From assembly GCA_946481205.1 (NCBI GenBank), contig CAMLNB010000033.1, forward strand, positions 1 to 21,212: a stretch of DNA of 21,212 nucleotides, in the 5' to 3' direction. This document shows positions 7,173-21,203 of this stretch, in pieces (within the stretch, counting starts at the first letter, position 1; every line of letters starts with the position of its first letter). The stretch comes from an uncultured Kangiella sp. Lineage in GTDB: Bacteria; Pseudomonadota; Gammaproteobacteria; Enterobacterales; DSM-103792. Position numbers and translations under genes: made by a program. The notes beneath the pieces are model-generated. The model had not been told where the DNA came from. It made no database searches and saw nothing but the letters and a program-made list of their open reading frames with translations.

Positions 7173-8444
7173 TCAGGGGTTTGATAACTGACCGCTACGT
7201 CGTTGCAAGCGGTGCCGGTAGCTTTCGACTGGCGTGCCGCTGCCATCATTCGGTGTCGTGTAATACACGAGCTGCATCGTGTCACCGCTCAATTCTACGC
7301 GCGCAAAACCCCAGACCATATCTGCGACGTAATGCGTGATCTTTTCCGGATAGGTCCGATTCTGATAGGCCATGAAGGCTTTGTTGGCGCCGCGCTGTTT
7401 GGCGGCCGCGCCGGAGACAATTTGTGGTAGCGGCGGCAGCTTGGTGAGCGCCGTGTCGACACCGATGCCCGCACAACTGTCCTCATGCAACTCCAACGTG
7501 TGCTCGTGGCCGGCAAACCATGCATCGGCATACTGACAGGCAATCGGCATCAGCATTTTGCGTAGCGCATGACCTTGCTCGAATTTGCTGCCGCCTGACG
7601 CCCAGACCGGATGGTGAGCGATCAGGAATTTCCAATTTGCATCCGATTGCTGCATGGCTGCGCGCAGCCAGTCCAGTTGCTGACGTTCCGCGTCGGTTTG
7701 CGGCGTCGCCCACGGGTCATTGCGGTCCAGTTTGTCATGGCGCAGTTCGCTACCATCATCGGCAAGCTTGGCTTTGTAAACCGTGGTGCCGCCGAGCAGC
7801 AGTTCAGTATCGACAATGAACAACTCAACCAAGCCGTTCGCTGCCGGCGGTTTGACCTGATAGAAGAATCCGTTGATGTAAAACGCGGGTTGCTGCTGCA
7901 AGTAATCAATTTGCGCCTGGGCACCCTCACGCGAGGTATTCCAGTCGTGATTGCCGAGCGTCACATAGGTTTTGAACGCAGTTCGGCTATGACCAAGATC
8001 GGCATAGGGCTGGCGAAACAACTTGTCAAATCGCGGCCCATCGGGATGGCCATCGGCACCGAGTGTGGCGCCGTCCGGATAAATGTTATCGCCCAGCATC
8101 ACGGCAAAATCACAGTGCTGCTGTTGGCAGACGGATTTCATCGCGCGGGCAACCGGCATTAGCCCACTGGCGGGCACATAGCTCTGCAGGCCGGGATGAA
8201 AATAATGCGGTGATGGCCGGAAATCAGCCAGTGGCTTTTTGTCGTCCAGCCATTCAGCACGTTCCATCGCGATGAACGCTTCCTCGCTGGTGAGCGCCGG
8301 TATGTAATCAGCCGCTTCGACGTAATCCATGTGATAACCGCTGTCGCCAAACGCGAGAAACGTAACGGTGTCTGCGCTGTTATCAGGTTGTTTGGTGCAG
8401 CCGGCTAGTAACAGCAAGCCGAGCAGAGAACAGGTTCGATACAT
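7173..8444 (-). CDS. Lipoprotein metallophosphoesterase (purple acid phosphatase-like)
   Basis: A 423-residue calcineurin-like phosphoesterase, third gene of the phytate operon. From the ATG at 8444 it begins MYRTCSLLGLLLLAGC, a lipoprotein signal with a lipobox cysteine at residue 16. Dinuclear-metal motifs appear in order: FGDSG (32-36), LGDNIYPDG (117-125), LGNHDW (163-168), AHHPVWASGG (276-285) and GHEH (312-315), so all metal ligands expected of an acid-phosphatase-like enzyme are present. The insertion between the first two motifs (about 80 residues) is longer than in small phosphatases. The likely job is hydrolysis of phosphate monoesters in the periplasm or at the surface, perhaps lower inositol phosphates left by the phytase (inferred from context). 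In-frame starts at 8471 and 8519 would add a leader without signal character; the 8519 start lies in the hairpin between the genes. No strong Shine-Dalgarno precedes any candidate. Confidence 0.88.
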   Translation of the reverse strand: MYRTCSLLGLLLLAGCTKQPDNSADTVTFLAFGDSGYHMDYVEAADYIPALTSEEAFIAMERAEWLDDKKPLADFRPSPHYFHPGLQSYVPASGLMPVARAMKSVCQQQHCDFAVMLGDNIYPDGATLGADGHPDGPRFDKLFRQPYADLGHSRTAFKTYVTLGNHDWNTSREGAQAQIDYLQQQPAFYINGFFYQVKPPAANGLVELFIVDTELLLGGTTVYKAKLADDGSELRHDKLDRNDPWATPQTDAERQQLDWLRAAMQQSDANWKFLIAHHPVWASGGSKFEQGHALRKMLMPIACQYADAWFAGHEHTLELHEDSCAGIGVDTALTKLPPLPQIVSGAAAKQRGANKAFMAYQNRTYPEKITHYVADMVWGFARVELSGDTMQLVYYTTPNDGSGTPVESYRHRLQRRSGQLSNP

Positions 8445-8479
8445 GAAGGAGCCCGAAAAAGAAGGGGACATGGCTGCGA

Positions 8480-8517
8480 GGCGAGGGCGGTTCCGACGCA
8501 GCGGAACCGCCCTCGCC
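8480..8517 (-). terminator. Perfect 16-bp hairpin between phytase and phosphoesterase genes
   Basis: GGCGAGGGCGGTTCCG (8480-8495) pairs perfectly with 8502-8517 around a 6-base loop. On the minus strand the stem starts two bases after the phytase TGA. No immediate T-run follows; the nearest, TTCTTTTT, is about 20 bases downstream. It may be an attenuator or RNase barrier that lowers phosphoesterase expression relative to phytase, rather than a full terminator. Confidence 0.6.
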
Positions 8518-8519
8518 AT

Positions 8520-10532
8520 TCAATCGAGCTTCAAGGCCGCGCGGACATCTGTCCACGCCACATATTTGAAGTTTTGTTTGCCTTGTGGCAGACGCTTGCG
8601 ACCATCTTGCAAGACCAGCAGGCCCTCACTGAACGCGCCGCCGAAATTGCCGGCACTGACTTCCAAGCCATCGGTTTCGGAAACGCCATCAATGCCGAGC
8701 TCTGCATTGATGGCGACCTGGAAACGGCCGCGCTGTGTGAACGGTGCTTTGGCGTCGAGCACGACGTAGCTGTCATCACCTTGGCTGGAAATGACCAGAT
8801 AGCTGTGCTGATCGTTTTGCCAGAGTCCGAGTCCTTCAATATCAGCTTCCACGCCAGCACCGGCGCGGATCACTTCGATCATGGTCGTCGGTGCATTGGC
8901 ATCGGCCGCCAGCGTCCAGACCGCCACGTCTTCTTCTCCAATATAAAGCTGTTTGTTGCGATCATCGGCAACGCAACCTTCAGGCTGGCTACCGACCTTG
9001 AACTCGCGCAGCAGCTCATGACTCAGCTTGCCATCACGGCTGTGCAGGCGGTACTGCAGGAAACGCCCATCCTTGTCGTTCGGAATAGCATGGATTTCTC
9101 CGGCTTGCGGCGAGTACAGACAAAGCCCGTAAATCTCAGTCATGGCGACTGGCAAATTGCCGAGCTCGCTAACCTGGCCAGTGCTGCGGTCAATGCCGTA
9201 AACCGTCAAACTGTTGAAGCTGCGATTGCCGGCAACGGCAAGATCAAGGGTTTTGCCCTGCCACGGAAAACCGCTGCGGATATCCACGTTGTTGATATCG
9301 CCACTGGCCAGTTTTTGCAGGGTCTTGCCGTCCAGATCATAAACCAGCAAGCCAAATTTCTTGTCGGTGGCCAGAATGCGGCTCTTGCTGCGATCACTCG
9401 GATGCATCCAGATTGCCGGATCATCGGCAGCGTCGCCTTCGCTGATCACGGCCTGAGTCTGAACCCGTGCCGGTACGCTGATAACCCGCGCTGGTTCTGC
9501 GCTTGCAGCTGCCCATGGCAGCGTAGCGCGGGCAAAACTGTCGGCGTCATCATCGCGGACCAACAGCTGCAATTGCTGTGCGTGCAGACGCACGCTGATC
9601 TGTTCCGGTTTCTGGCTGCCGGTCAGGGCGAGTGATGCCATCGGCTGCCATTGTCCGGCATTGTGTTGGTAACGATGCAGTTGTGCGTGTTCGCCATCAA
9701 CAATCAGTAGCGTGCCAGCGACAGCGGCCAAGCCGTCAGCGCTGCCAAGCGGACCGTGCGGCGCTACCAAGGCAACGAGTTCGCGCAGCGGATCGGTTTC
9801 CGCTGCGGCCGGGTAGCGCCAGACGCCGATACCTTCTTCATTAACGAACAGGTGATCGGCGTTGTCATCGACTGCACAGAACTTCGCGCTCGGCGGCAAA
9901 CTCAGCTGGCGCATTTGTTTGGCAGACGCCAGCAACTGATCGCCATGCCCCACCAACCAGTGCTCACCACGGCCTTCCTCACCAACGACAAACAGCTGCA
10001 GATTCTGTTCAGCATCGCGATACAGGCAAACCGACTCGACGCCAAAATCCATCGCCGGCAAGTACAGCGGCGTCGAAAAATGTGGCGTGCTGGCGCTGAG
10101 CTTCAGAACAGCGGCCTGGTGCCGAATGCGATCATAGGTGGCCACCCACAGCGAACCGTCGCTGTTGTCGCGGCTGTCGAGCGCGTCGAAACGGCCATCA
10201 AGCTGCGCCTGAATGCTGCCATCGGCAGTCAGTAACAGCAGGCCTTGGCGCGGGCTGGCGGCCAGCCGTTCGATGCCCTGCCAGGCCGTGCTGGCTGGAA
10301 GCAGTTGTGAGGCATCAATGGCCCATTCTTTCGCGGTGCTTACTGCGCTCAGATGCACGGCGTTGCTGGTCTCGGTAGCCGCGGTCGGTGCCGAGATTGC
10401 GCTGGTCGCATTGTCAGAACGGGTACTGGTATCCGGTGATTGTTGTTCGCAGCTGCTGAGACCAATTGTCGCCAGCATAGCCAATGCCACGGTGCTTGGC
10501 CGTGGCCTGCGCAGGGTAAAACCAACGTTCAT
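8520..10532 (-). CDS. Beta-propeller phytase, lipoprotein, two-propeller form
   Basis: A 670-residue phytase (EC 3.1.3.8 class) that releases phosphate from phytate in a Ca-dependent manner in known members. The start ATG at 10532 has AAGGA at 10540-10544 and gives a lipoprotein signal with lipobox LSSC, Cys28. The C-terminal half (about 350-670) is a standard beta-propeller phytase: SEGDAADDPAIW (364-375), ATDKKFGLLVYDLDGK, NNVDIR, QPEGCVADD, LYIGEE, EADIEGLGLW, SSQGDDSYVV, DGVSETDGLEV (615-625) and SEGLLVLQDG. The N-terminal half (about 80-340) looks like a second, degenerate propeller: for example SVCLYRDAEQNLQLFV parallels GLCLYSPQAGEIHAI, and FCAVDDNADHLFVNEE parallels GCVADDRNKQLYIGEE. 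It lacks the DAADDPAIW calcium/active-site strand. The gene follows the TonB-dependent receptor by 59 bp. A start at 10583 would overlap the intercistronic hairpin and destroy the lipoprotein signal. Confidence 0.94.
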   Translation of the reverse strand: MNVGFTLRRPRPSTVALAMLATIGLSSCEQQSPDTSTRSDNATSAISAPTAATETSNAVHLSAVSTAKEWAIDASQLLPASTAWQGIERLAASPRQGLLLLTADGSIQAQLDGRFDALDSRDNSDGSLWVATYDRIRHQAAVLKLSASTPHFSTPLYLPAMDFGVESVCLYRDAEQNLQLFVVGEEGRGEHWLVGHGDQLLASAKQMRQLSLPPSAKFCAVDDNADHLFVNEEGIGVWRYPAAAETDPLRELVALVAPHGPLGSADGLAAVAGTLLIVDGEHAQLHRYQHNAGQWQPMASLALTGSQKPEQISVRLHAQQLQLLVRDDDADSFARATLPWAAASAEPARVISVPARVQTQAVISEGDAADDPAIWMHPSDRSKSRILATDKKFGLLVYDLDGKTLQKLASGDINNVDIRSGFPWQGKTLDLAVAGNRSFNSLTVYGIDRSTGQVSELGNLPVAMTEIYGLCLYSPQAGEIHAIPNDKDGRFLQYRLHSRDGKLSHELLREFKVGSQPEGCVADDRNKQLYIGEEDVAVWTLAADANAPTTMIEVIRAGAGVEADIEGLGLWQNDQHSYLVISSQGDDSYVVLDAKAPFTQRGRFQVAINAELGIDGVSETDGLEVSAGNFGGAFSEGLLVLQDGRKRLPQGKQNFKYVAWTDVRAALKLD

Positions 10533-10591: not shown

Positions 10592-13099
10592 TCAGAATTG
10601 GCTGTAGCTGACGCCGATGCTATAGCTCGGGCCATACTCTTCATATTGATAGTTATAGGCACGGCGGCCGGTGTAGACGTAGTAGGGCTCATCACCGAGA
10701 TTGCGTGCTTCGACATACAGCTGCAGGCCCTTGCTCAAGAACCAGCGCGCGGACAGATCAAACTGGGTCTGCTGATCGACGAAAGCATCGTAGGATTTGT
10801 CGCTGATGTCGGCAACTTCGTACAAGTACTCAGACTTGTAGTTGCCGGTCAAACGCAGGCTCAAGGTATCGGTTTCATAGCCAAGCGTCAGGTTGCCGGT
10901 GACATCGGATTGGCTCGGCAAACGGATATCACGACTGTCGCCGCTGCCGTTGCGAATCTCGGCATCGGAGTCGGTGAACGTGGCGTTGACGGCAAGCAGA
11001 AAGCCGTTGGCAAATTTCTGCGACCAAGCCAGCTCCAGACCGTACAGACTGGCGCTGTCGCCGTTGGCAAAGCTGATCGCTTCGTCAAAGTCGGCCCAAT
11101 CGCCACTGCCGGCCAGATCGGTCTGGTAGACAAAATTGTCGATGTCTTTGTGGAAGACAAATGCCGACAGCACGCTGGCGTGGCCAAAGAAGTGCTCGAT
11201 GCCGATATCGATGTTGCGCGACTCGAGCGGCTTCAAATCCGGATTGCCGAACTCGGCTTCATCACCGTCAATGACAAAGCCCGGTGCGCGCTCACCGAAC
11301 GTGGCGCGAACCACGCTGTGGGTCAGGGCGAGCCGCAGCTGGGTATCGTCATTGATCAGGTAACGACCGTGCAGGCCCGGCAGCCAATGATCGTCGTCGC
11401 GCTTGGTCTGCACGGATTCGAATTCGCCATCGCGCAGGCCGGTGCCCTCGGCTTCAAACTTAGTGCCTTCGTAGCGCACGCCAGCGATGATGCGCCAGTC
11501 ATCCAGATCAAGCGTCTGCATGACATAGGCTGCGTTGATATCTTCCTGCATCGTAAAGTCTTCGATGCGGGACGCTTCCTCATCATGAAACTCGTCACGA
11601 TCGAGCTGGCTGAGCAGTTGCCGAACGGCCGCGCTGGAGATGGCAGGACCGAAGCGGCCAAGCGCGTAGTCCACGTTGCCGCCGGCCAAGGCGCTCAGAT
11701 TCAGCGCGTCGTCGCTGATGCCAAAGTCGGAGAAGTCTTCGTAAGCCCAGACCTCGACCTCGTTGTCTTTTTCGCGCCGGCTCAGCTTGGCACCGAATTT
11801 CAAGGTGGCATCGGCACTGCCCCAGCTGAACGGGCGGCTGAAATCGAGGCGGGCATTGTGCTCGGTATCGGTGGTGTCGCTCTTTGCAATCTCTGCTTCA
11901 TCAAGGCTGAAATTGCTGGCGTCATAAAAGGCTTCATCGAGCTGCAAGCGTGGCCGCCGGCTGTTACTGAAACCGCCGTCGCCACTGTCGGCGGTGAACA
12001 CTGCCGGATCGAGCTGATCCGGGTTGTCTTCACCGGCGCGGCCATAACCCACCTGGCCGCTGACTCGCCATGTGCTGTATTGTTTTTCTGCACCGACGAC
12101 TACCGAATAAATGGTCTGGGTTTCTTCCCGGTCTTTCAGCTCCCGGGCGACTTCGGTTTCGCCAATTTCGCCGTCTTCTTGAGCGTCTTCAAACTCGGCT
12201 TTCAGCAATTGCCGGTATTCCTGATCGGCAAAGCGGCTGTACAGTGTGCGTAACCAATACTTGCTGTCATCGTCAGGGCGGAAATCGAAATTCAGCGCGG
12301 CACCGATGCGTTCGCGTTCAATGCTGTAGTCGCGCTGTTCGACGCTGGCCAGCCGTGCGGCGTCGTCAAAATCCCAGTCGCCACCGGTTTCGACGTTATC
12401 AGAACCGAAGCTGCGGTCATGGAAGTTCACTGCGGCGGCAACGCCAAGCGTATCGCCGGCACCGAAGCGGTCGCTGAATGCAGCGGCATATTTCGGGCTG
12501 TGCTCGCCGGTGTTATCGTCATAACTGGTTTCGGCGCTGAGCGTATAGAACCGGCCTTTGTGATCGAATGCTGACAGGCTTTCGACTTCAACGGTGCCGC
12601 CGAGCGAGTTGGCGTCCATGTCAGGCGTCAGCGTTTTTACCACCGATACGGACTGTAATAGTTCAGCCGGCAGCACATCCAAGGCCACGGCGCGGCGCTC
12701 GCTTTCTGGTGCCGGCACCAGCGAGCCGTTGATGGTCACAGCGTTCAGATCCGGACTCAAACCGCGAACGCGGATAAAACGGCCTTCACCCTGATCGCGC
12801 TCGATGGAAATGCCTGGCACCCGTTGCAAGGCTTCGGCGGCGTTATCATCCGGCAGCTGACCAATGCCATCAGCCTTGACCACGCTTTCGATGCGATCCG
12901 AGGCGCGTTGCTCGCGCAGCGACTGCTCAAGGCTGGCAGCCTGACCAATCACCTCGATGCGAACGGCTTCGCCATCCTCGATGGCGACCGACGGCGCGAC
13001 CTGCTCAGCAGCATGCGCTGACAAACCGGATGCAACAGCCAGAGCCAGCACGCTGAAGCGAAACAGCGGGCCGGTGAAAACGGGTGAACGGTATTCCAC
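10592..13099 (-). CDS. TonB-dependent outer-membrane receptor (TIGR01782-like), phytate operon
   Basis: An 835-residue outer-membrane beta-barrel transporter powered by TonB-ExbBD, first gene of the operon. I start it at GTG 13099: GGGGAG at 13107-13112 lies 7 bases upstream and a clear signal peptide follows (LFRFSVLALAVASGLSAHA). The frame is open a further 93 codons upstream, but that part has no signal peptide and would cover the Pho box. A putative TonB box is RIEVIGQ just after the signal. The plug domain follows with IGQLPDDNAAEALQRVPGIS, IRVRGLSPDLNAVTINGS and LGGTVEVES, typical of the Caulobacter/Xanthomonas receptor group. The barrel runs to the C-terminus and ends in the canonical aromatic residue (SYSQF). 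The substrate is inferred to be phytate, its metal complexes or breakdown products, because beta-propeller phytases are repeatedly found next to such receptors. Confidence 0.94.
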   Translation of the reverse strand: MEYRSPVFTGPLFRFSVLALAVASGLSAHAAEQVAPSVAIEDGEAVRIEVIGQAASLEQSLREQRASDRIESVVKADGIGQLPDDNAAEALQRVPGISIERDQGEGRFIRVRGLSPDLNAVTINGSLVPAPESERRAVALDVLPAELLQSVSVVKTLTPDMDANSLGGTVEVESLSAFDHKGRFYTLSAETSYDDNTGEHSPKYAAAFSDRFGAGDTLGVAAAVNFHDRSFGSDNVETGGDWDFDDAARLASVEQRDYSIERERIGAALNFDFRPDDDSKYWLRTLYSRFADQEYRQLLKAEFEDAQEDGEIGETEVARELKDREETQTIYSVVVGAEKQYSTWRVSGQVGYGRAGEDNPDQLDPAVFTADSGDGGFSNSRRPRLQLDEAFYDASNFSLDEAEIAKSDTTDTEHNARLDFSRPFSWGSADATLKFGAKLSRREKDNEVEVWAYEDFSDFGISDDALNLSALAGGNVDYALGRFGPAISSAAVRQLLSQLDRDEFHDEEASRIEDFTMQEDINAAYVMQTLDLDDWRIIAGVRYEGTKFEAEGTGLRDGEFESVQTKRDDDHWLPGLHGRYLINDDTQLRLALTHSVVRATFGERAPGFVIDGDEAEFGNPDLKPLESRNIDIGIEHFFGHASVLSAFVFHKDIDNFVYQTDLAGSGDWADFDEAISFANGDSASLYGLELAWSQKFANGFLLAVNATFTDSDAEIRNGSGDSRDIRLPSQSDVTGNLTLGYETDTLSLRLTGNYKSEYLYEVADISDKSYDAFVDQQTQFDLSARWFLSKGLQLYVEARNLGDEPYYVYTGRRAYNYQYEEYGPSYSIGVSYSQF

Positions 13100-13167
13100 G
13101 TGACAACTCCCCAGAGCGAATCGAATGGCTTGCTTGCGACCGCCATCGCTGCCGCAACTGGAGCTGC

Positions 13168-13173
13168 ACGCTA
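13168..13173 (-). promoter_or_regulatory. Candidate -10 of the receptor-phytase operon
   Basis: TAGCGT (3 of 6 to TATAAT) starts exactly 10 bp after the second Pho-box heptamer, the spacing used by PhoB-activated sigma-70 promoters, where the Pho box replaces the -35. The hexamer itself is weak, as expected for an activator-dependent promoter. Confidence 0.4.
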
Positions 13174-13183
13174 GGGATCGTTG

Positions 13184-13201
13184 ATGGCAGTTCGATGACA
13201 G
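13184..13201 (-). promoter_or_regulatory. PhoB binding site (Pho box) for the phytate operon
   Basis: On the minus strand, CTGTCAT (13201-13195), spacer CGAA, CTGCCAT (13190-13184): 13 of 14 heptamer positions match the PhoB consensus CTGTCAT-N4-CTGTCAT with the exact 11-bp period. It ends 85 bp upstream of the GTG start of the receptor. Isolated CTGTCAT occurrences inside genes elsewhere in the window (for example at 1167, 8770, 16726 and 16951) have no second repeat at 11 bp. Confidence 0.75.
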
Positions 13202-13359
13202 TGCCGGAAGCGCAGCGCGGGAATCGCGGGTTTTGGCGCGTTTCATGGGCACTGTTGAGCTCGATGCACCCGGTTGCAAAGGCTCGCTGGGCAGCACTGT
13301 CGTGCTGATCGCGACTGCAACGGCAGTGCGATGCTCGCAGGCCGTTTTGATTTGTCGTC

Positions 13360-13372
13360 TCAGCTGAGCTGA
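13360..13372. promoter_or_regulatory. Palindrome in the divergent intergenic region
   Basis: TCAGCT-G-AGCTGA, a perfect 13-bp inverted repeat with one central base, overlapping a shifted 10-bp palindrome CTCAGCTGAG. It lies between the two divergent genes and could be an operator, but no regulator can be assigned. Confidence 0.25.
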
Positions 13373-13381
13373 TCGCACCCC

Positions 13382-13422
13382 CTGTCATGCGCGCTGACAT
13401 CGAACCGTCATCTGGCTGTGGT
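13382..13422 (+). promoter_or_regulatory. Tandem Pho-box-like heptamers upstream of GGDEF-like gene
   Basis: Four heptamers in plus orientation start at 13382 (CTGTCAT, 7/7), 13394 (CTGACAT, 6/7), 13405 (CCGTCAT, 6/7) and 13416 (CTGTGGT, 5/7), with periods 12, 11 and 11 bp. The middle pair has the exact Pho-box geometry. The array ends 39 bp before the ATG at 13462. I see no convincing -10 at the expected distance. The whole 362-bp region from 13100 to 13461 holds no other gene I would support. Confidence 0.5.
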
Positions 13423-13461
13423 GATCTGCTCGCCACTGCAAACTGGCCACCGGTATGCCCG

Positions 13462-14385
13462 ATGACGCTATCAACCGTTCGTTACCCTTGGCTGTTGTTG
13501 CCAACCTTGCTAGCCGCCAGTGCCATCCTGCTGCTGATGAGCTGGCATGGCAGCGCGAAGCCTGTGCAAGACTGGGCCTGGCTCGACATCGTTGGCGAAG
13601 GCGGCACCGCGTTATTGATTCTGTGTTGGCTGAGCTGGGTGGCACGGAGCCGGCCCGGCGGTCGGGTTACCGCGCTGTTGCTGCTGGGTTTGTCGTTTGT
13701 GTTTCTGGCGATGTGGTCTGATACGCTCGATGAATTCATCCGTTTGCCGGATCCGGTGCAGTGGGATCGCTGGTTGGAGTCGGCCACGATGCCCGCTGGT
13801 CTGTTGCTGCTGACGGCGGGCATTTATCACTGGCATCAGGAACAGCTGGCGATCAACGTCCAGATGCACAAGCGCGAACGCTTGTTTCGCGAACACCGCT
13901 ATTTCGATGCGCTGATCCCGCTGACCGGTGCCGGTTATTTGCGTCGGCAATTGCAGCGCGAGCTGAAACGGGTCGATGCCGACGGCCAACCGGCGTTTGC
14001 CCTAGTGGTGCTGGACCTGAATCAATTCACCGCGTTGAATCGCGAACACGGTTACGCCGAAGGTGACCGGGTGCTGCAGGCGGTGAGTCAGTTGCTGCTG
14101 CTCAATCTGCGCCAGCAGGATCTGCTTTGTCGACTGGCCGGAGATCGTTTTGTCGCGCTGTTACCGACGACATCTGCTGCCACGGCAGCACAGATTGCCG
14201 ATGAGTTGCGCATCGCGGTTGCCGCTTTGGCCTATCGGACGCAGCCGGCACATCAGCGTTTGCAGTTGTCGGCAACGGCAGTAGCGGTGATGCCGCGCGC
14301 CGATGAAACAGTAGAACAGTTGCTGAATCGGCTCGGTCAATCGCAATTGTCAGCAAACACCGCCGGCGCTGTGGCGTTTGCCTGA
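13462..14385 (+). CDS. Membrane protein with degenerate GGDEF domain
   Basis: A 307-residue inner-membrane signalling protein. About four membrane segments fill the first 130 residues (PWLLLPTLLAASAILLLM; GGTALLILCWLSWVA; VTALLLLGLSFVFLAMW; MPAGLLLLTAGIYHW). A GGDEF-like domain of about 160 residues follows, recognisable from LVVLDLNQFTALNREHGYAEGDRVL and the half-site LCRLAGDRFVALLP. The signature is AGDRF (226-230) instead of GGDEF: the first Gly is Ala and the metal-binding Glu is Arg. Diguanylate cyclase activity is therefore doubtful, and a receptor or scaffold role is possible. There is no clear RxxD inhibitory site. I prefer the ATG at 13462 because it directly precedes the first membrane segment and leaves the Pho-like sites upstream; ATG 13387 adds 25 polar residues. 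The AraC gene starts 6 bp after its stop, so the two are probably cotranscribed. Confidence 0.82.
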   Translation: MTLSTVRYPWLLLPTLLAASAILLLMSWHGSAKPVQDWAWLDIVGEGGTALLILCWLSWVARSRPGGRVTALLLLGLSFVFLAMWSDTLDEFIRLPDPVQWDRWLESATMPAGLLLLTAGIYHWHQEQLAINVQMHKRERLFREHRYFDALIPLTGAGYLRRQLQRELKRVDADGQPAFALVVLDLNQFTALNREHGYAEGDRVLQAVSQLLLLNLRQQDLLCRLAGDRFVALLPTTSAATAAQIADELRIAVAALAYRTQPAHQRLQLSATAVAVMPRADETVEQLLNRLGQSQLSANTAGAVAFA

Positions 14386-14391
14386 GCCATC

Positions 14392-15426
14392 ATGACCAGC
14401 GCAACGCGATGGTATGAGCGTGACGAGCGCTTTATTCCGGTTCATCAGCAGCCGGCCTGTTTGATCGACTTGGCGTTGGCGCGCGACGTAGACAGTCATC
14501 GGCTGTTGCGCGGTACCGGTTTGTTCTATGACCAGTTGGACAGCGAGCGTTTGATCAGCCCGCAGCAATTGCTGCGGCTGTTCGACAATGCGCTGCACTG
14601 TCTGGCCGCCGATGACACCGGTTTTCAACTCGGCCATCGCTTGCTGCCCGGCCATCATGGCAGCCTGAGCACTGCGCTGGCACATGCCAGCCATCTAGCG
14701 GATGCGCTGGATTTGTTGCTCAATCATCGTGCGCGTTTGAGCCCGCTACTGGCGCCGCGGCTGCATCTGGATGAGCGCTATGTTTGCTTGTATTGGCTCG
14801 ACGTCTGCGGTGCCGGCAGTGCTCTGCCGCAGCTGGTTGAAGCGCACATGACCGCGGTCAGCGCGATGTGTCGCTGGCAGAGTGGCGAGCGCTGGCCTTG
14901 GCAGTTTCTGTTCAGTCATCAGGCGCCGCCTTATCGCGAGCAGTACCAGGCACACCTGGGCGAGGATCTGCATTTCGGCTGTCAGATCGATGCGATGGTG
15001 CTGCCACGGGCTTATTTCCTGAAACCGTGGCCGCGTGCCTCGCAGACCGTCGCGGCATTGGCCCGTCGGCAATTGGCGCAGCAAGGCCAGCCGGCGCTGG
15101 CGACCAGCTTTGTCGAACGGGTTTATCAGAGCATGTTGGTGGAGGTCCGGCGCGGCAGCAGCCTTGATGCCATTGCTGCTGCACTCGACATCAGCCCGGC
15201 CACCTGCAAGCGCAAGCTCAAAGCCCATGGCAGCAGTTTTCAGGCCCTGCATGACGCGGTCCGCAAGCACGTGGCGCTGTACCTGTACTGGGCTCGCGGC
15301 TATGGCAGCGACGCGGTAGCCGACTACCTCGGCTTCCATGACACCACCAATTTCCGGCGCTCGTTCAAACGCTGGACCGGCCAGCTGCCCAGTGTGCTGC
15401 GCCATTATTTGCCACAAAGCAGTTGA
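14392..15426 (+). CDS. AraC-family transcriptional regulator (PF12625-type N-terminal domain)
   Basis: A 344-residue DNA-binding regulator. The N-terminal ~220 residues resemble the 'arabinose-binding domain of AraC regulator' family (CLIDLALARDVDSHRLLRGTG, then LLRLFDNALHCLAADDTGFQLGHRL), found in regulators of the OruR/ArgR and virulence type rather than true arabinose sensors. The C-terminal AraC domain has two helix-turn-helix units: the first around residues 256-280 (LDAIAAALDISPATCKRKLKAHGSSF) and the second around 303-332 (DAVADYLGFHDTTNFRRSFKRWTG), the latter carrying the conserved family signature. It follows the GGDEF-like gene by 6 bp and precedes the ABC export operon by 88 bp. 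Targets are unknown; candidates are the divergent phytate operon and the downstream transporter. No ligand can be inferred. Confidence 0.92.
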   Translation: MTSATRWYERDERFIPVHQQPACLIDLALARDVDSHRLLRGTGLFYDQLDSERLISPQQLLRLFDNALHCLAADDTGFQLGHRLLPGHHGSLSTALAHASHLADALDLLLNHRARLSPLLAPRLHLDERYVCLYWLDVCGAGSALPQLVEAHMTAVSAMCRWQSGERWPWQFLFSHQAPPYREQYQAHLGEDLHFGCQIDAMVLPRAYFLKPWPRASQTVAALARRQLAQQGQPALATSFVERVYQSMLVEVRRGSSLDAIAAALDISPATCKRKLKAHGSSFQALHDAVRKHVALYLYWARGYGSDAVADYLGFHDTTNFRRSFKRWTGQLPSVLRHYLPQSS

Positions 15427-15514: not shown

Positions 15515-16240
15515 GTGAGCGTTGGCGTGGCAGAAGGGCAGGTCGTGTTGCGCATGCAAGGCGTGCGCAAGGTCTATCAGGCCGGCGAGGTTGAGGTGGT
15601 CGCTTTGCGCGACATCGACCTCGAATGCAGAGCCGGGGAGTTCATTGTCATCTTGGGCGCGTCGGGCAGCGGCAAGTCCACCTTGCTGCATCTGCTCGGC
15701 GGCTTGGATACGCCAACTGCTGGCCGCATCTTTTACCTCGACCACAATCTGACGGCCGCCAGCGAGACGGAACTGACCCAGTTTCGGCGGCAGCATGTCG
15801 GCTTCGTTTTTCAGTTCTACAATCTCGTTCCCAGCCTGACCGCACTTGAGAACGTTGCGTTGGTAACGGATGTTGCACCGGCGCCATTGGATGCCGGTGA
15901 AGCGTTGCGTCGGGTGGGGCTGGCCGATCGGATTCACCATTTTCCGGCCCAGCTTTCCGGCGGCGAACAACAACGTGTTGCCATCGCTCGAGCCATTGCC
16001 AAACGGCCGGATGTGTTGCTCTGTGATGAGCCGACCGGTGCGCTCGATTACGCGACCGGCAAGAACGTGTTACAGGTATTGGCCGACGTCAACCGTGAGC
16101 TCAACACCTTGACGATCGTGATCACCCACAATGCCGCCGTAGCGGCGATGGCGGATCGGGTGATCCGACTCAGCAGCGGCCGGATCATTTCCGATACCCG
16201 CAATGACCGGCGTGCCAGTGTGGAGGAGCTGACATGGTGA
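15515..16240 (+). CDS. ABC transporter ATP-binding protein (MacB/LolD type)
   Basis: A 241-residue ATPase that energises the adjacent FtsX-type permease. All motifs are intact: Walker [10 protein letters not shown] (48-56, Lys54), Q-loop Gln100 in [18 protein letters not shown], signature LSGGEQQ (147-153), Walker B LLCDEP (Asp171, Glu172), D-loop GALD, and H-loop His205 in VITHN. The [15 protein letters not shown] segment is typical of the LolD/MacB/FtsE group, which works by mechanotransmission rather than classical transport. Starts are GTG codons at 15515 or 15527; neither has a well-spaced ribosome site and I keep the longer. The 88 bp upstream of it shows only a weak promoter possibility (CTGACC at 15476, TTTTAT at 15497). 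The permease follows after 34 bp. Confidence 0.94.
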
Positions 16241-16274
16241 CGCCCGTGGCAAAGACCGACGCGGTGGCCAACGC

Positions 16275-18635
16275 ATGAGTGCATTGGCGCAGATGCGGTG
16301 GCGCGACCTTTGGTGGTTGCGCGGCCAGGTGTTTGCGACGGCGCTGGTCATTGCCTGTGGCATTGCTTCGTTTGTTGCAACCTACGGCACCTGGCAGGCC
16401 TTGGCACGAACCCAGCAAGAATATTATCGGCAGTATCGCTTTGCCGAGGTTTTTGCCCCGGTCAAACGGGCGCCGCTGACAATGGTCAGCAAACTTGAGC
16501 AGCTCGCTGGTGTCGCTCAAGTTGCGGTGCGCATCAACGCTGAAATCATACTGGACGCTCCAGAGCGTGAAGTCCTGACCAGTGCGCGCCTGGTGTCGTT
16601 GCCACCCGAACAGCCGTCGCTGAACGGGATCTATCTGCGTCGTGGTCGCTGGCCCTCTGCGCATGTCGGCAACGAGGTGCTGGTCAGTGAAACGTTCGCC
16701 AAGGCCAATGCCTGGCAGCCCGGTACTGTCATTCCGGTGATTCTGAACGGTCGGCGCGAAACGCTGCTGGTGGTTGGCATCGCGCTGGCGCCTGAATTCA
16801 TTTATGAAGTCGGGACCGGTGCATTGCTGCCAGATGCGAAGCGATTCGGTGTGATGTGGATGGCCTATGACCGATTGGCCCCAGCCGTCGGCATGCAAGG
16901 CGCCTTCAATGAGGCTTTGTTTACCTTACAGCGAGGCGTCAGTGTTTCAGCTGTCATCGCGAACATTGACGCGCTATTGACGGTGTACGGCGGGACCGGC
17001 GCCTATGATCGCAACGATCATCCTTCACATCAGTTCATTCGTGACGAGATCAGCCAGAACCGGATTCATACCACGTTTGTGCCGGCGATCTTCCTGTCGG
17101 TGGCCGCGTTCCTGCTGCACGTTACGTTATCGCGGCTGATCAGCTTGCAACGCGGTGAGATTGGCCTGTTGAAAGCGTTTGGCTACTCATCGATGCAGAT
17201 TGGTCATCATTACGTAACGCTGGCGATGACCATGGCCTTGCTGGGGGCTGTGCCGGGTATCTTGCTCGGTGCATGGCTCGGCGAGGCGCTGACCGTTATC
17301 TACAACGATTATTATCATTTTCCGTCGCTGCGCTATGTCCTGCACGCATTCAACGTCCTGCTCGCATGTGCCATTGCCATTGGTGCCGCCTTTTTTGGCG
17401 CGCTGCTGCCGGTGCGTCGTGCCATTGCCTTGGCTCCTGCGGAAGCGATGCAACCCGAACCGCCACCGCGTTTTCATGCCGGTCGTTGGGAACGGCTTGC
17501 AACGTGGTTATCGCACACGCCGACCTGGCGGATGACCGTGCGGCAATTGTTGCGACGGCGACTGCGAGCCCTGTTTTCGCTGCTTGCTGCCAGTACCGCG
17601 ATGGCGATTCTCGTGCTCGGCGGATTCGGTTTTGACACGCTCGATGCGGTGATGCGTGAACAGTTTGACGAGCTCAATCGTGAACACGTCACGGTGCAGC
17701 TGCGCGAGCCGCGAGGCAATGACGCGCTGTCTGCATTTTATCGCTTGCCCGGGGTGCTGGAAGCCGAAGCGTTTCGCCAGATCCCTGTTCGCTTGCGCCA
17801 CGACCATTATCAAAAGCGCTTGGTCATTACTGCTATGCCGACGACGGCAAGTTTGCGGGTCTGGCGGGATTTCCGAGGTGAAGTGTTACCGCTGCCAGAA
17901 AACGGCATCAGCCTCAGTCAGACCTTGGCGACACAATTGCAGGTCAGTCGCGGCGACAAGGTGCTCGTGGAGGTGCTGGAAGGACAGCGTCGGCAGCGGT
18001 TGCTGCAGGTGGAGCAATTGACCGAGCAATGGCTCGGACTCGGTGCCTATGTCAGCCCGGCGACCGCGCAATGGCTGCTCGGTGACGGCGGGACGGTAAG
18101 CGGTGCCTGGTTGCGAATGGATGACCAAGCATGGCCCGCGCTGGCCTCGACATTGCGGGAGACTCCCTGGTTAGCTGCGAGCGTGCGCAAAGCCGATCTC
18201 AAGGCCAGTATGGATGCCATGCTGGAACGCAGTGTTGAAGTGGCAACCTTCATCAACATATTGTTTGCTGGCGCCATTGCCTTTGGCGTGATTTACAACA
18301 ATTTGCGTATCGCGCTATCGGAACGCGGTCGCGAACTGGCGTCTTTGCGGGTGCTCGGTTTTACCCGCCAGGAAGTGCTGCAGATATTACTGGCCGAACA
18401 AGCCGTGATTCTCCTGTTGGCGGTCCCGCTTGGCAGTGTGCTGGGTTATGGCTTGTGCGCATGGCTTAGCGAACGATTGGTGACAGATGCCTATCGTTTG
18501 CCATTGGTCGTCAATGGCGATACCTATCTCTCCGCGGCGTTGGTGTTGCTGGTGGCCGCCATGCTGTCAGCCATCGTAGTCGCCAAGCGGTTGGCCAAGA
18601 TGAACGTTGTTGATGTCCTGAAGACGAGGGAGTGA
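16275..18635 (+). CDS. ABC transporter permease with two FtsX domains
   Basis: A 786-residue inner-membrane permease built of two similar halves, each with one N-terminal membrane helix, a large periplasmic domain, then a three-helix FtsX domain (about eight helices in total). First half: helix near residues 18-38 (VFATALVIACGIASFVATYG), periplasmic domain to about 265, then three helices ending before LLPVRRAIALAPAEAMQP. Second half: helix LFSLLAASTAMAILVLGGFG, periplasmic domain, helices starting FINILFAGAIAFGVIYN, and the C-terminal NVVDVLKTRE. Coupling-helix-like motifs occur in each half (GEIGLLKAFGYSSMQI and RELASLRVLGFTRQEV). The adaptor gene starts 1 bp after its stop. The substrate could be a lipid, lipoprotein, peptide or small molecule; nothing in the sequence decides. 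No strong ribosome site precedes ATG 16275, so translational coupling to the ATPase gene is possible. Confidence 0.93.
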   Translation: MSALAQMRWRDLWWLRGQVFATALVIACGIASFVATYGTWQALARTQQEYYRQYRFAEVFAPVKRAPLTMVSKLEQLAGVAQVAVRINAEIILDAPEREVLTSARLVSLPPEQPSLNGIYLRRGRWPSAHVGNEVLVSETFAKANAWQPGTVIPVILNGRRETLLVVGIALAPEFIYEVGTGALLPDAKRFGVMWMAYDRLAPAVGMQGAFNEALFTLQRGVSVSAVIANIDALLTVYGGTGAYDRNDHPSHQFIRDEISQNRIHTTFVPAIFLSVAAFLLHVTLSRLISLQRGEIGLLKAFGYSSMQIGHHYVTLAMTMALLGAVPGILLGAWLGEALTVIYNDYYHFPSLRYVLHAFNVLLACAIAIGAAFFGALLPVRRAIALAPAEAMQPEPPPRFHAGRWERLATWLSHTPTWRMTVRQLLRRRLRALFSLLAASTAMAILVLGGFGFDTLDAVMREQFDELNREHVTVQLREPRGNDALSAFYRLPGVLEAEAFRQIPVRLRHDHYQKRLVITAMPTTASLRVWRDFRGEVLPLPENGISLSQTLATQLQVSRGDKVLVEVLEGQRRQRLLQVEQLTEQWLGLGAYVSPATAQWLLGDGGTVSGAWLRMDDQAWPALASTLRETPWLAASVRKADLKASMDAMLERSVEVATFINILFAGAIAFGVIYNNLRIALSERGRELASLRVLGFTRQEVLQILLAEQAVILLLAVPLGSVLGYGLCAWLSERLVTDAYRLPLVVNGDTYLSAALVLLVAAMLSAIVVAKRLAKMNVVDVLKTRE

Positions 18636-18636
18636 T

Positions 18637-19824
18637 ATGCGTTTGCAAGCCAAACCATTGCTGATTGGGTTTGCGGTTGTCGCACTGGCCATTACCGTGT
18701 GGCGGGTCACGCGGGCGGCACCAATTGCCGTTGATGTGGTCGAGGTCAGCTTGGCGCCAATGCGGGTAACGGTCGAGGAGGAGGGAGAAGTCCATGCTCA
18801 TGATCGTTACATGGTTACCGCGCCGATCACGGGTCGCTTGTTGCGGGTCCGTTTGCACGAAGGTGATGCCGTCAAAACCGGCGAGGTGGTCGCTTCGTTG
18901 ATGCCGTTGCCCGTATCGAGTTGGCAACGACAGGAGCTGGAGGCACGGCTAACGGCGGCGATCGCCCGGCAACGGGAAGCACGCGCGGATGTTGCCCGCA
19001 CGCAGTTGCTGCAGGAGCAGGCCGAACGCGAACGTGCGCGTACCGAACAGTTGCTGAGCCAGAAGCTGATAGCGCAACAAGTTGCTGATGATGCGTCGGC
19101 GCAAGCACGCGCAGCCGCAGAGGTGTCACGCGCAGCTCGGCAGCGCGCGGTGGCTGCAGAGGCTGATGTCGCGGCGACTCGCGCGTCGTTGGCGGCAATT
19201 GATGTCAGCGGCAACGTGGAACCCGTGAACCTGACAGCACCGGTCGATGGCAAGGTGCTGAGCCTCATCGAACAAAGCGAGCGAGTGCTCAGCAGCGGCG
19301 CGCCAATATTGCTGCTGGGGGATCCGAGCCGACTTGAGGCGCGCATCGAGTTGCTATCGACCGATGCGGTCAACGTCAGGCCGGGTATGGCCGTCGAACT
19401 GTTTGGATGGGGTGGGGAGCAAACGCTGACCGGACGCGTGCGGACCGTGGAGCCGTCGGCGTTCACCAAGATTTCGACGTTGGGTGTAGAGGAGCAGCGG
19501 GTGCGGGTCATTGCCGAGATCGACACTCCGCCGGCTTCGCTTGGCGATGGCTACCACCTTGAGGCACGTATTCTGATCTGGCAGGTGGATTCCACACTGC
19601 AAGTACCCGTCGGTGCACTGTTTCGGCAAGGCCCAGGCTGGGCCGTTTTTCGCGCTGAAGGCGATACCGCTGTGTTGACCTTAGTCGAGCTTGGTCAGCG
19701 CAACCGTGAGCAGGTGCAGGTGCTGAACGGTCTGGCACCGGGGCAATTGGTTATTGCCTATCCACCGTCCGATCTGGAGGATGGCAGTCGCATCAACGCC
19801 CGTTCTGCGGCGGGCCTCCGGTAG
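18637..19824 (+). CDS. HlyD/AcrA-type periplasmic adaptor of ABC exporter
   Basis: A 395-residue membrane-fusion protein linking the permease to an outer-membrane channel. A single N-terminal membrane anchor (LLIGFAVVALAITVW, residues 8-22) is followed by the first half of a lipoyl-like domain (APITGRLLRVRLHEGDAVKTGE), an alanine/arginine/glutamine-rich coiled-coil hairpin at about 95-190, the second lipoyl half (NLTAPVDGKVLSLIEQSERVLS), and beta-barrel and membrane-proximal domains to the end. GAGGGAG, inside the end of the permease gene, serves as its ribosome site, and the spacing of 1 bp to the previous stop implies tight coupling. The ATPase-permease-adaptor set resembles MacAB or DevBCA exporters. 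No TolC-like gene is in the window, so a shared outer-membrane channel encoded elsewhere is likely. Confidence 0.92.
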   Translation: MRLQAKPLLIGFAVVALAITVWRVTRAAPIAVDVVEVSLAPMRVTVEEEGEVHAHDRYMVTAPITGRLLRVRLHEGDAVKTGEVVASLMPLPVSSWQRQELEARLTAAIARQREARADVARTQLLQEQAERERARTEQLLSQKLIAQQVADDASAQARAAAEVSRAARQRAVAAEADVAATRASLAAIDVSGNVEPVNLTAPVDGKVLSLIEQSERVLSSGAPILLLGDPSRLEARIELLSTDAVNVRPGMAVELFGWGGEQTLTGRVRTVEPSAFTKISTLGVEEQRVRVIAEIDTPPASLGDGYHLEARILIWQVDSTLQVPVGALFRQGPGWAVFRAEGDTAVLTLVELGQRNREQVQVLNGLAPGQLVIAYPPSDLEDGSRINARSAAGLR

Positions 19825-19841
19825 CCCTTGATGACGCGGCT

Positions 19842-19859
19842 ATGCCATCATGTTGGCAT
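19842..19859. promoter_or_regulatory. 18-bp near-palindrome between adaptor and unknown gene
   Basis: ATGCCA-tCATGt-TGGCAT: two 6-bp arms around a CATG core with one mismatched pair. It lies 18 bp after the adaptor stop and 25 bp before the preferred start of the next gene. There is no T-run, so it resembles an operator rather than a terminator; function is unproven. Confidence 0.3.
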
Positions 19860-19883
19860 CTGCCCAACCGGCCCGGTCTGACC

Positions 19884-21203
19884 ATGCACGTCACCTTTCC
19901 CAATGCCAATAATTTCCAGTTGTCGCGCGGTATTTTCATTGCCGCCTGGAAGGTCTGGTTCAAGCGCTTCGATCCCCAGCCAGAGAGCTGGCGCGAAGGC
20001 CGCATCCCGCGTTTCGATGCCGAAGGCAAGCTGTGCGAAATGCTGGCGCGTGGCCACCGTTTTTCGGTGGATGTGATTGCCCGGCTGATGGTGCCGTGGC
20101 CGTTCCGCAACACGGTGCAGGCCAATGACGATTTCATCCGGCTGAATCCGGCACTGCTGCGCTCTTGCAGCTATGTCGACGAAGCGAGCGGCAACAGCGT
20201 GCCCGGCGCGCGCTTGACCGATCAGGCGCTCGACTATTGGGACTCGCTCTCGTTTGTTGCCCAGGAGATGTATCTGGTTTACGCCGAAGCGCGAGTGCAG
20301 GCCGATATTGAAACCTCCAGCGACGATCCGGTGGTGATCGACGACGGCGGCAATTGCGTGATCGGGGAAAGCATTTACCCGCCGGTTGTGCCGAAAGCCG
20401 ATGCGCCGGACAGCGAGTTCGTCAAAGCGCTGGTGCGCTGGATTGATGAAGAGCCGTATCAACCGATGTACCAGCGGCAACCGGTTGGCGAGCCCGTGAG
20501 TGGCTGGCATGACCGACTGCTGAAGTTCTTCTGGCCGAAGCCGCGAATCAATTACAGCGCCTACGGTTTTCTGACCAACTCATTGCTGTACCGCGCCCGA
20601 CTGCTGGCGAAAACCATTGAAGACAACAAAGCTTGGACGGTTGAAGAGCAGTTTCTGGCAGTAAAGATCGCCAATGAAATTTTCAATCTGTTTGGCGTGC
20701 CGCAGCGTGAAGTGACCACGGAAAATGTGCGCAAAGTCGTACAAGCGGCGCTGAATGCGGACGCCGATGCCAAAGCCAAGATGAACTCCGGTTGGACGTG
20801 GCTGGCGGCCTTTACGACCGCGCATCGCGAACACGATGCCAAGGCTCTGCCGCTGACCGGGTTCAATAGCCGCGTTGCGGCTTCGCTGGTGTCGCGGTTT
20901 GATTTTCTGTTGGCAGAAACGGGTCATAGCGCAGTCGGCAAACGGTTTGCCGGGCTCGGTACCGTTCCCGGTTACGGCGGCACCCGGCCGCGCCAGCTCA
21001 GCTTGAGCTGGCCGGATGCGTATCGCAGCTGGGCTTCACAAATTGCGGTCAGCCAACTGGTGCGCGAGATTCGTGATCTGCTCAACAACGAGCGCAAAGC
21101 TGATGGCAGCTTGCGCTATCAAGCCATGCCGTTGCCGGATGGTGGCACCGGGCCGTGGACAGTGCTCGGTGTCGGTTATGTCCTGATGGGCGACGGCTAC
21201 TGA
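19884..21203 (+). CDS. Uncharacterised protein, 439 residues
   Basis: I do not recognise this family. There is no signal peptide or membrane segment, so it is probably cytoplasmic. The N-terminal part is rich in aromatic and basic residues (FIAAWKVWFKRFDPQPESW). A middle acidic segment (SSDDPVVIDDGG) leads into a helical region with TVEEQFLAVKIANEIFNLFGVPQREVTTENV. Near the C-terminus there is a glycine-rich stretch (GLGTVPGYGGTRPRQ) followed by a helix (ASQIAVSQLVREIRDLLNNER). I prefer ATG 19884 over ATG 19842, because the latter sits inside a palindrome and encodes an unlikely leader (MPSCWHLPNRPG); neither has a good ribosome site. It follows the export operon by 59 bp on the same strand, but nothing in it suggests a transport role. 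Codon use and base composition look like the neighbours, arguing that it is a real native gene. Confidence 0.75.
   Translation: MHVTFPNANNFQLSRGIFIAAWKVWFKRFDPQPESWREGRIPRFDAEGKLCEMLARGHRFSVDVIARLMVPWPFRNTVQANDDFIRLNPALLRSCSYVDEASGNSVPGARLTDQALDYWDSLSFVAQEMYLVYAEARVQADIETSSDDPVVIDDGGNCVIGESIYPPVVPKADAPDSEFVKALVRWIDEEPYQPMYQRQPVGEPVSGWHDRLLKFFWPKPRINYSAYGFLTNSLLYRARLLAKTIEDNKAWTVEEQFLAVKIANEIFNLFGVPQREVTTENVRKVVQAALNADADAKAKMNSGWTWLAAFTTAHREHDAKALPLTGFNSRVAASLVSRFDFLLAETGHSAVGKRFAGLGTVPGYGGTRPRQLSLSWPDAYRSWASQIAVSQLVREIRDLLNNERKADGSLRYQAMPLPDGGTGPWTVLGVGYVLMGDGY

Follow-up and report, generated by a model that had tools for sequence, protein, structure and literature searches.

Genes for a TonB-dependent receptor and a beta-propeller-type phytase lie side by side in the 21,212-bp stretch of DNA analyzed here (the window), and an earlier note on this sequence had placed a PhoB box in front of them. 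The question raised by this locus is whether the box is a genuine control site and, if so, whether it acts on its own. Our results indicate that positions 13184–13201 very probably do form a control site for phosphate starvation, ahead of genes for phytate uptake and digestion. Since this box belongs to a divergent promoter that also contains another Pho box as well as an operator of a second, non-PhoB type (Table 1), it does not appear to act in isolation. We consider it probable that the site functions as a PhoB box within a conserved divergent promoter, both arms of which would be controlled jointly by PhoB and a local AraC-family protein.

Table 1. Features of the divergent promoter region and adjacent genes in the window.
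Feature	Position	Strand	Details
Calcineurin-like metallophosphoesterase (PF00149)	7173–8519	-	no match in 80 loci at 1e-8
Beta-propeller-type phytase (PF02333)	8520–10532	-	profile match
TonB-dependent receptor (TIGR01782)	10592–13099	-	GTG start
Receptor-side -10, TAGCGT	13168–13173	-	10 nt past Pho box; placement and T-A-n-n-n-T pattern retained across 73 regions (anchored alignment)
Receptor-side Pho box, CTGTCAT-CGAA-CTGCCAT	13184–13201	-	18.7 bits; 13/14 consensus letters
Operator E2, TGAGCTCGATGCACC	13256–13270	+	54 nt upstream of receptor box; 10/15 consensus letters, 2.7 bits (weak)
Operator E1, TGAGCTGATCGCACC	13365–13379	+	12.0 bits; upstream of GGDEF-side boxes, 14 nt from best pair
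GGDEF-side Pho-box array	13382–13422	+	heptamers at 13382, 13394, 13405 and 13416 (steps 12, 11, 11)
Possible GGDEF-side -10, TGATCT	13422–13427	+	10 nt past pair 13394–13411; by position only, hexamer very weak
Membrane GGDEF-family protein, AGDRF loop and RxxD	13462–14385	+	profile matches, alignment
AraC-family regulator (PF12625 + PF12833), proposed E-binder	14392–15426	+	profile matches

The receptor-side Pho box and its conservation

The earlier note had described two heptamers in an 11-bp register, directed toward the receptor gene, with the hexamer TAGCGT exactly 10 nt downstream (13173–13168); their coordinates, strand, register and consensus fit (13 of 14 letters) all proved correct. 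With up to one mismatch, this is the sole match to the doubled heptamer in the 21,212 bp (both strands), and none of 100 dinucleotide shuffles contained such a match. When up to three mismatches were allowed, seven matches were found (1.47 expected), three of them within 13184–13422. Neither a sigma-70 promoter with a -35 sequence nor a terminator was detected in the region 13050–13520, and an Rfam search of 12900–13600 revealed no RNA family at E ≤ 1. A direct heptamer repeat in 11-bp register, followed about 10 nt downstream by a -10 sequence without a -35, is the arrangement of PhoB-activated promoters of the pstS and phoB type, in which CTGTCAT-type heptamers stand 11 bp apart and a weak -10 lies ten nt further on.

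Scoring with a PhoB weight matrix, as the earlier note had advised, ranked this box first among all positions of both strands of the window (18.7 bits). To build the matrix, 38 upstream regions of the pstS/phoB type were scanned in relatives, some of them preceding other members of these families instead of the main pstS or phoB gene; 17 boxes were used, and the remaining regions were dropped because of poor boxes or N. It contains no sites from phytase loci, and the choice of its boxes leaned on the known consensus.

Conservation was examined in the best 80 of 343 phytase relatives found. In 73 of these loci the receptor and GGDEF matches are divergent and at most 2.5 kb apart, with AraC behind GGDEF, while the other seven (L009, L022, L025, L026, L032, L040, L076) lack a usable receptor-GGDEF pair because of contig ends. 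The Pho-box set comprised 73 regions (the window and 72 loci; L078 left out). A receptor-facing score of at least 10 bits was obtained in all 73, whereas control windows of equal length taken from other parts of the loci reached it in 6.4% of cases; thus, the site is kept before orthologous genes. The earlier note had listed lack of conservation as a refuting outcome; its Pho-regulon reading passed this check and is supported by the conservation. In 72 of the 73 regions the receptor-side score is among the top 5% of the region's own control windows, the exception being L002, whose box is no better than 17% of them. Letters 1, 2 and 6 (T, A, T) of the -10, at 10 nt from the box, are nearly invariant. 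Many of the loci come from related Pseudomonas, and thinning by spacer identity left 56 regions, in which the information per column is 1.44 bits for the heptamers, 1.17 for the -10, 0.88 for operator E (described below) and 0.26 for the 54-nt spacer, where two short runs (AAA and TTT) reach about 1 bit.

The heptamers might be a chance match, or the site of another response regulator of the same family. Homologues of these regulators are numerous: the PhoB model gave 18–90 matches per genome. In the genomes of nine relatives, the model matched in all nine, above the cut-off in eight. However, a chance match is rejected by the conservation of the box and by the 0/100 shuffles, while the derivation of the matrix from relatives' pstS/phoB-type promoters and the phosphate-related gene content speak against another regulator, so that this explanation is very improbable. 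PhoB is predicted, with high confidence, to bind the receptor-side box.

A receptor start at the end of the open reading frame (13378) was rejected, since the GTG at 13099 is preceded by GGGGAG and followed by a signal-peptide-like sequence. As the receptor most likely starts at this GTG, the box is intergenic, and the receptor mRNA would have a leader of about 60 nt. The earlier note had assigned the box to a receptor-phytase-phosphatase operon; the receptor and phytase genes are indeed conserved, but the phosphatase gene (7173–8519) falls outside the conserved set.

The genera carrying the module include Pseudomonas, Stutzerimonas, Halopseudomonas, Alcanivorax, Methylophaga, Acinetobacter, Salinicola, Ectothiorhodospira, Brenneria, Herminiimonas, Oxalicibacterium, Rugamonas and Janthinobacterium. 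The window itself probably comes from a Permianibacter-like gammaproteobacterium: its MutS shares 92–94% identity with entries that include 'Pseudomonadota bacterium' and 'Permianibacter sp.' (99% with one further entry) and 73% with Permianibacter aggregans. No description of an AraC-GGDEF-phytase module was recognised in the open-licence literature searched. In the window, araC is followed on the plus strand by an ABC-exporter-like set (15515–21203) encoding an ATPase, an FtsX-type permease and an HlyD-type adaptor; such genes were not seen in the corresponding place in the other loci.

The opposed box array and operator E

The earlier note was right about the receptor box, but the picture was incomplete: an opposed array (13382–13422) and two copies of a further operator had been missed. 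The array faces the divergent GGDEF-araC operon. Its best pair (13394–13411) scores 12.7 bits, the highest plus-strand value of the window and just under the weakest training site (13.2 bits). We ruled out a GGDEF start at 13387: the coding sequence would then cover the array, and in the alignment the protein's N-terminus lies at 13462. With the same matrix and the same 6.4% control, 70 of the 73 regions have a GGDEF-facing score of at least 10 bits; ranked against each region's own control windows, 63 of the 73 scores fall within the highest 5%, and the other 10 do not.

Operator E, a 15-bp sequence (TGAGCTGATTTGACC), occurs in two copies on the same strand (GGDEF direction), each upstream of Pho boxes. 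Promoters of the pstS and phoB type share the box architecture, whereas here two opposed boxes lie in one region, each with a second, phased operator. Within the 110 nt searched before the receptor box, the distance between E2 and the box in 74 regions is 54 nt (56 regions), 53 nt (8), 43 nt (6) or 64 nt (2), with ties broken towards 54 nt; the steps correspond to about one helical turn. The best E match has fewer than 10 of 15 letters in two of the 74 regions. At least 12 letters are matched by E in 65 of 74 regions, compared to 1 of 74 for opposite-orientation controls, which reach at least 10 letters in 23 of 74. In the window, the next-best stretch in the span matches only 9 of 15 letters. 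L050 and L056 are weak in the E matrix scan, yet have their best E stretch at 54 nt. Among the loci cut by contig ends, E is found at a gap of 54 nt in L025, L026 and L032, while in L022 the Pho box is present and the DNA is too short to include E2.

Close to the GGDEF-side box, 69 of 73 regions (L078 left out) contain an E1 of at least 8 bits, at a distance of 6–8 nt (51 regions), 17–19 nt (14), 14 nt (2), -2 nt (1) or 30 nt (1). The 14-nt spacing of the window is unusual, being shared with L016 only. Fourteen regions are stretched to 0.8–2.2 kb (hit-to-hit), and in 13 of these both pairings persist, E2 staying near the receptor box and E1 near the GGDEF-side box; L034 is without E1.

In L002, L034, L042, L046, L048, L052 and L054, a gene of about 1.5 kb lies between the receptor and GGDEF genes and reads from the E1/Pho-box side. 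The five frames that were read are alike, and the two that were scanned (L048 and L054) are purple acid phosphatases (PF16656 + PF00149).

The arrangement bears on a simpler explanation, a plain Pho-regulon promoter in which both arms depend on PhoB alone and some other function falls to E, e.g. araC autoregulation. The conserved box and -10 are compatible with it, as are, in the available portions of two papers, the inclusion of phytase and TonB receptors in the Caulobacter PhoB regulon (PMC11208175) and the induction of a Flavobacterium phytase and receptor at low phosphate (PMC8115612). Nevertheless, E2 is tied to the receptor box and not to araC, at 43, 53–54 or 64 nt even in the regions of 0.8–2.2 kb, and in the accessible text of a proteomic study (PMC5082522), three Pseudomonas strains, which may or may not carry this region, are reported to give no evidence that PhoBR controls their phytases. 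Control by PhoB alone is therefore considered unlikely.

The AraC-family regulator as candidate E-binding protein

The exact E pattern, TGAGCYNAWWYGACC, was searched for in 16 genomes, giving 21 matches in 12 of them and none in four. By coordinate comparison, 15 of the 21 lie in this region and six elsewhere, versus four for the reversed control. Because the pattern was drawn from the same loci, matches within the region are expected, and the informative part is that there is no excess elsewhere. Among 194 genomes of the order, 67 matches were found versus about 76 for the control (hand count; 16 in one genome); seven of the 67, in six genomes, lie within about 1.2 kb of an araC orthologue, and the 60 others are again at control level. 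Such retention beside araC, with no excess at other loci, is as expected of an AraC operator.

An AraC orthologue (E ≤ 1e-50, in an initial scan that scored up to 10 candidates per genome) was detected in 13 of the 194 genomes, and GGDEF and phytase genes adjoin it in all 13. These comprise 12 newly fetched loci and G002, the genome of L004; L156 and L069 seem to be one and the same record, so the two locus sets overlap. The receptor gene is adjacent in 9 of the 12 fetched loci, L165 gave a weak partial match, and none is shown in L163 and L164, where the phytase and GGDEF genes diverge directly from one another. Eleven of the 13 loci have an E-box pair at 43, 53–54 or 63 nt, with cut-offs (E at least 10/15, gap 35–75 nt) that were set after the first set had been seen; L164 and L165 lack a pair on the phytase side. 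In a further phytase locus, L152, where AraC is 34% identical, E stands at 54 nt beside a weak box.

These data point to a local E factor, since E shows no excess elsewhere, and the conserved set includes no DNA-binding protein other than AraC. Placed beside a locus-specific operator, the conserved araC gene is proposed to encode the E-binder, an assignment based on sequence that we regard as likely. It is quite improbable that E is instead the site of another factor. Consistent with such a factor, conservation of AraC is the same in its DNA-binding domain as in the other one (0.69 vs 0.69), and the exact pattern is missing from four of the 16 genomes; on the other hand, four phytase loci without AraC and GGDEF (two of which have a receptor) contain no E above 10/15, and the control-level matches elsewhere argue against a factor acting outside this locus. 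The regulator has the domain layout of the PF12625 AraC-type regulators, but scores below the curated cut-offs of each of the QhpR, CypR and GliR models.

In some E copies (L077, L080, L157, L158 and the window), TGACC in the second half is replaced by GCACC. Both copies in the window carry GCACC, as if changed together, which possibly reflects a shared change in AraC specificity.

Two proposed inputs and the GGDEF-family protein

The observed elements of the divergent promoter, with their conservation, spacing and locus specificity, are best accommodated by the following mechanism, which we consider probable. Two modules would each comprise a Pho box, a weak -10 ten nt on, no -35 and one upstream E, whose distance from the box shifts by about one helical turn. 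At low phosphate, PhoB~P would stand in for the -35 contact at both promoters, and the neighbouring AraC-type protein would bind E1 and E2, adding a second input. Both inputs together would raise expression of the receptor and phytase in one direction and of the GGDEF-AraC pair in the other. The second input would most likely be phytate or an inositol phosphate, this ligand being the least certain part of the proposal. Joint action of PhoB and AraC, as judged from the sequence features, is reasonably probable; the weak E2 of the window (2.7 bits), its unusual E1 spacing (14 nt) and a GGDEF-side box scoring below the weakest training site count against the mechanism as a whole.

M9 medium is phosphate-rich. 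In the available part of an array study of P. syringae exposed to bean leaf extract in M9, the phytase PSPPH_2990 was up 3.2-fold and the AraC-family gene PSPPH_2994 2.3-fold (PMC2803797); judged by tag spacing, these genes would fit the present module. Given the medium, phosphate starvation would seem to be no absolute need in P. syringae. Conversely, low phosphate alone may be insufficient, as PhoBR control of phytases was not seen in the accessible text of PMC5082522, whose authors suggest phytate as the inducer. The published phytase, receptor and AraC data, as far as these sources present them, favour two inputs, short of a strict gate. Joint control could explain why Pseudomonas phytases were reported not to be PhoBR-regulated, and conserved Pho boxes with a second phased operator offer a testable resolution, namely a need for the two signals together.

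The protein encoded beside araC resembles PleD-type GGDEF domains in its aligned fold region and RxxD inhibitory-site motif (RQQD opposite RAID), but has AGDRF where PleD has GGEEF. Of 74 aligned module proteins, 72 have AGDRF and two AGDKF, and none has the GG(D/E)EF loop of an active diguanylate cyclase; the RxxD of a c-di-GMP inhibitory site lies five residues before the loop in all 74. Of 1,220 relatives in the database, the 120 nearest likewise all have AGDRF. Thirteen more distant proteins have AGDRF (8), AGDRY (1) or AGHRF (2; L157 and L158), the loop not being found in two, and RxxD is absent from the L165 protein. No relative was found in viral contigs, and no paper mentioning AGDRF together with GGDEF was found in the open-licence literature searched. 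Since acidic residues of the loop are lost in some members, a role as a nucleotide receptor or structural protein seems favoured over that of a cyclase.

More tentatively, and with rather more doubt than confidence, a dedicated phytate circuit of Gamma- and Betaproteobacteria may be envisaged, in which PhoB and a phytate-sensing AraC protein form a coincidence gate on back-to-back promoters via phased E-box pairs, and the AGDRF protein, as a non-cyclase membrane nucleotide receptor, ties phytate/phosphate status to second-messenger signalling. For phytate use, the analysis offers a candidate regulator and a candidate operator, along with an unusual subfamily of GGDEF proteins. In the available text of PMC3032545, rapA of Pseudomonas fluorescens Pf0-1, which encodes a phosphodiesterase, is likewise described as a Pho-box gene of the c-di-GMP family; in the present case, by contrast, the gene encodes a GGDEF protein with an altered loop and lies beside phytase and AraC genes.
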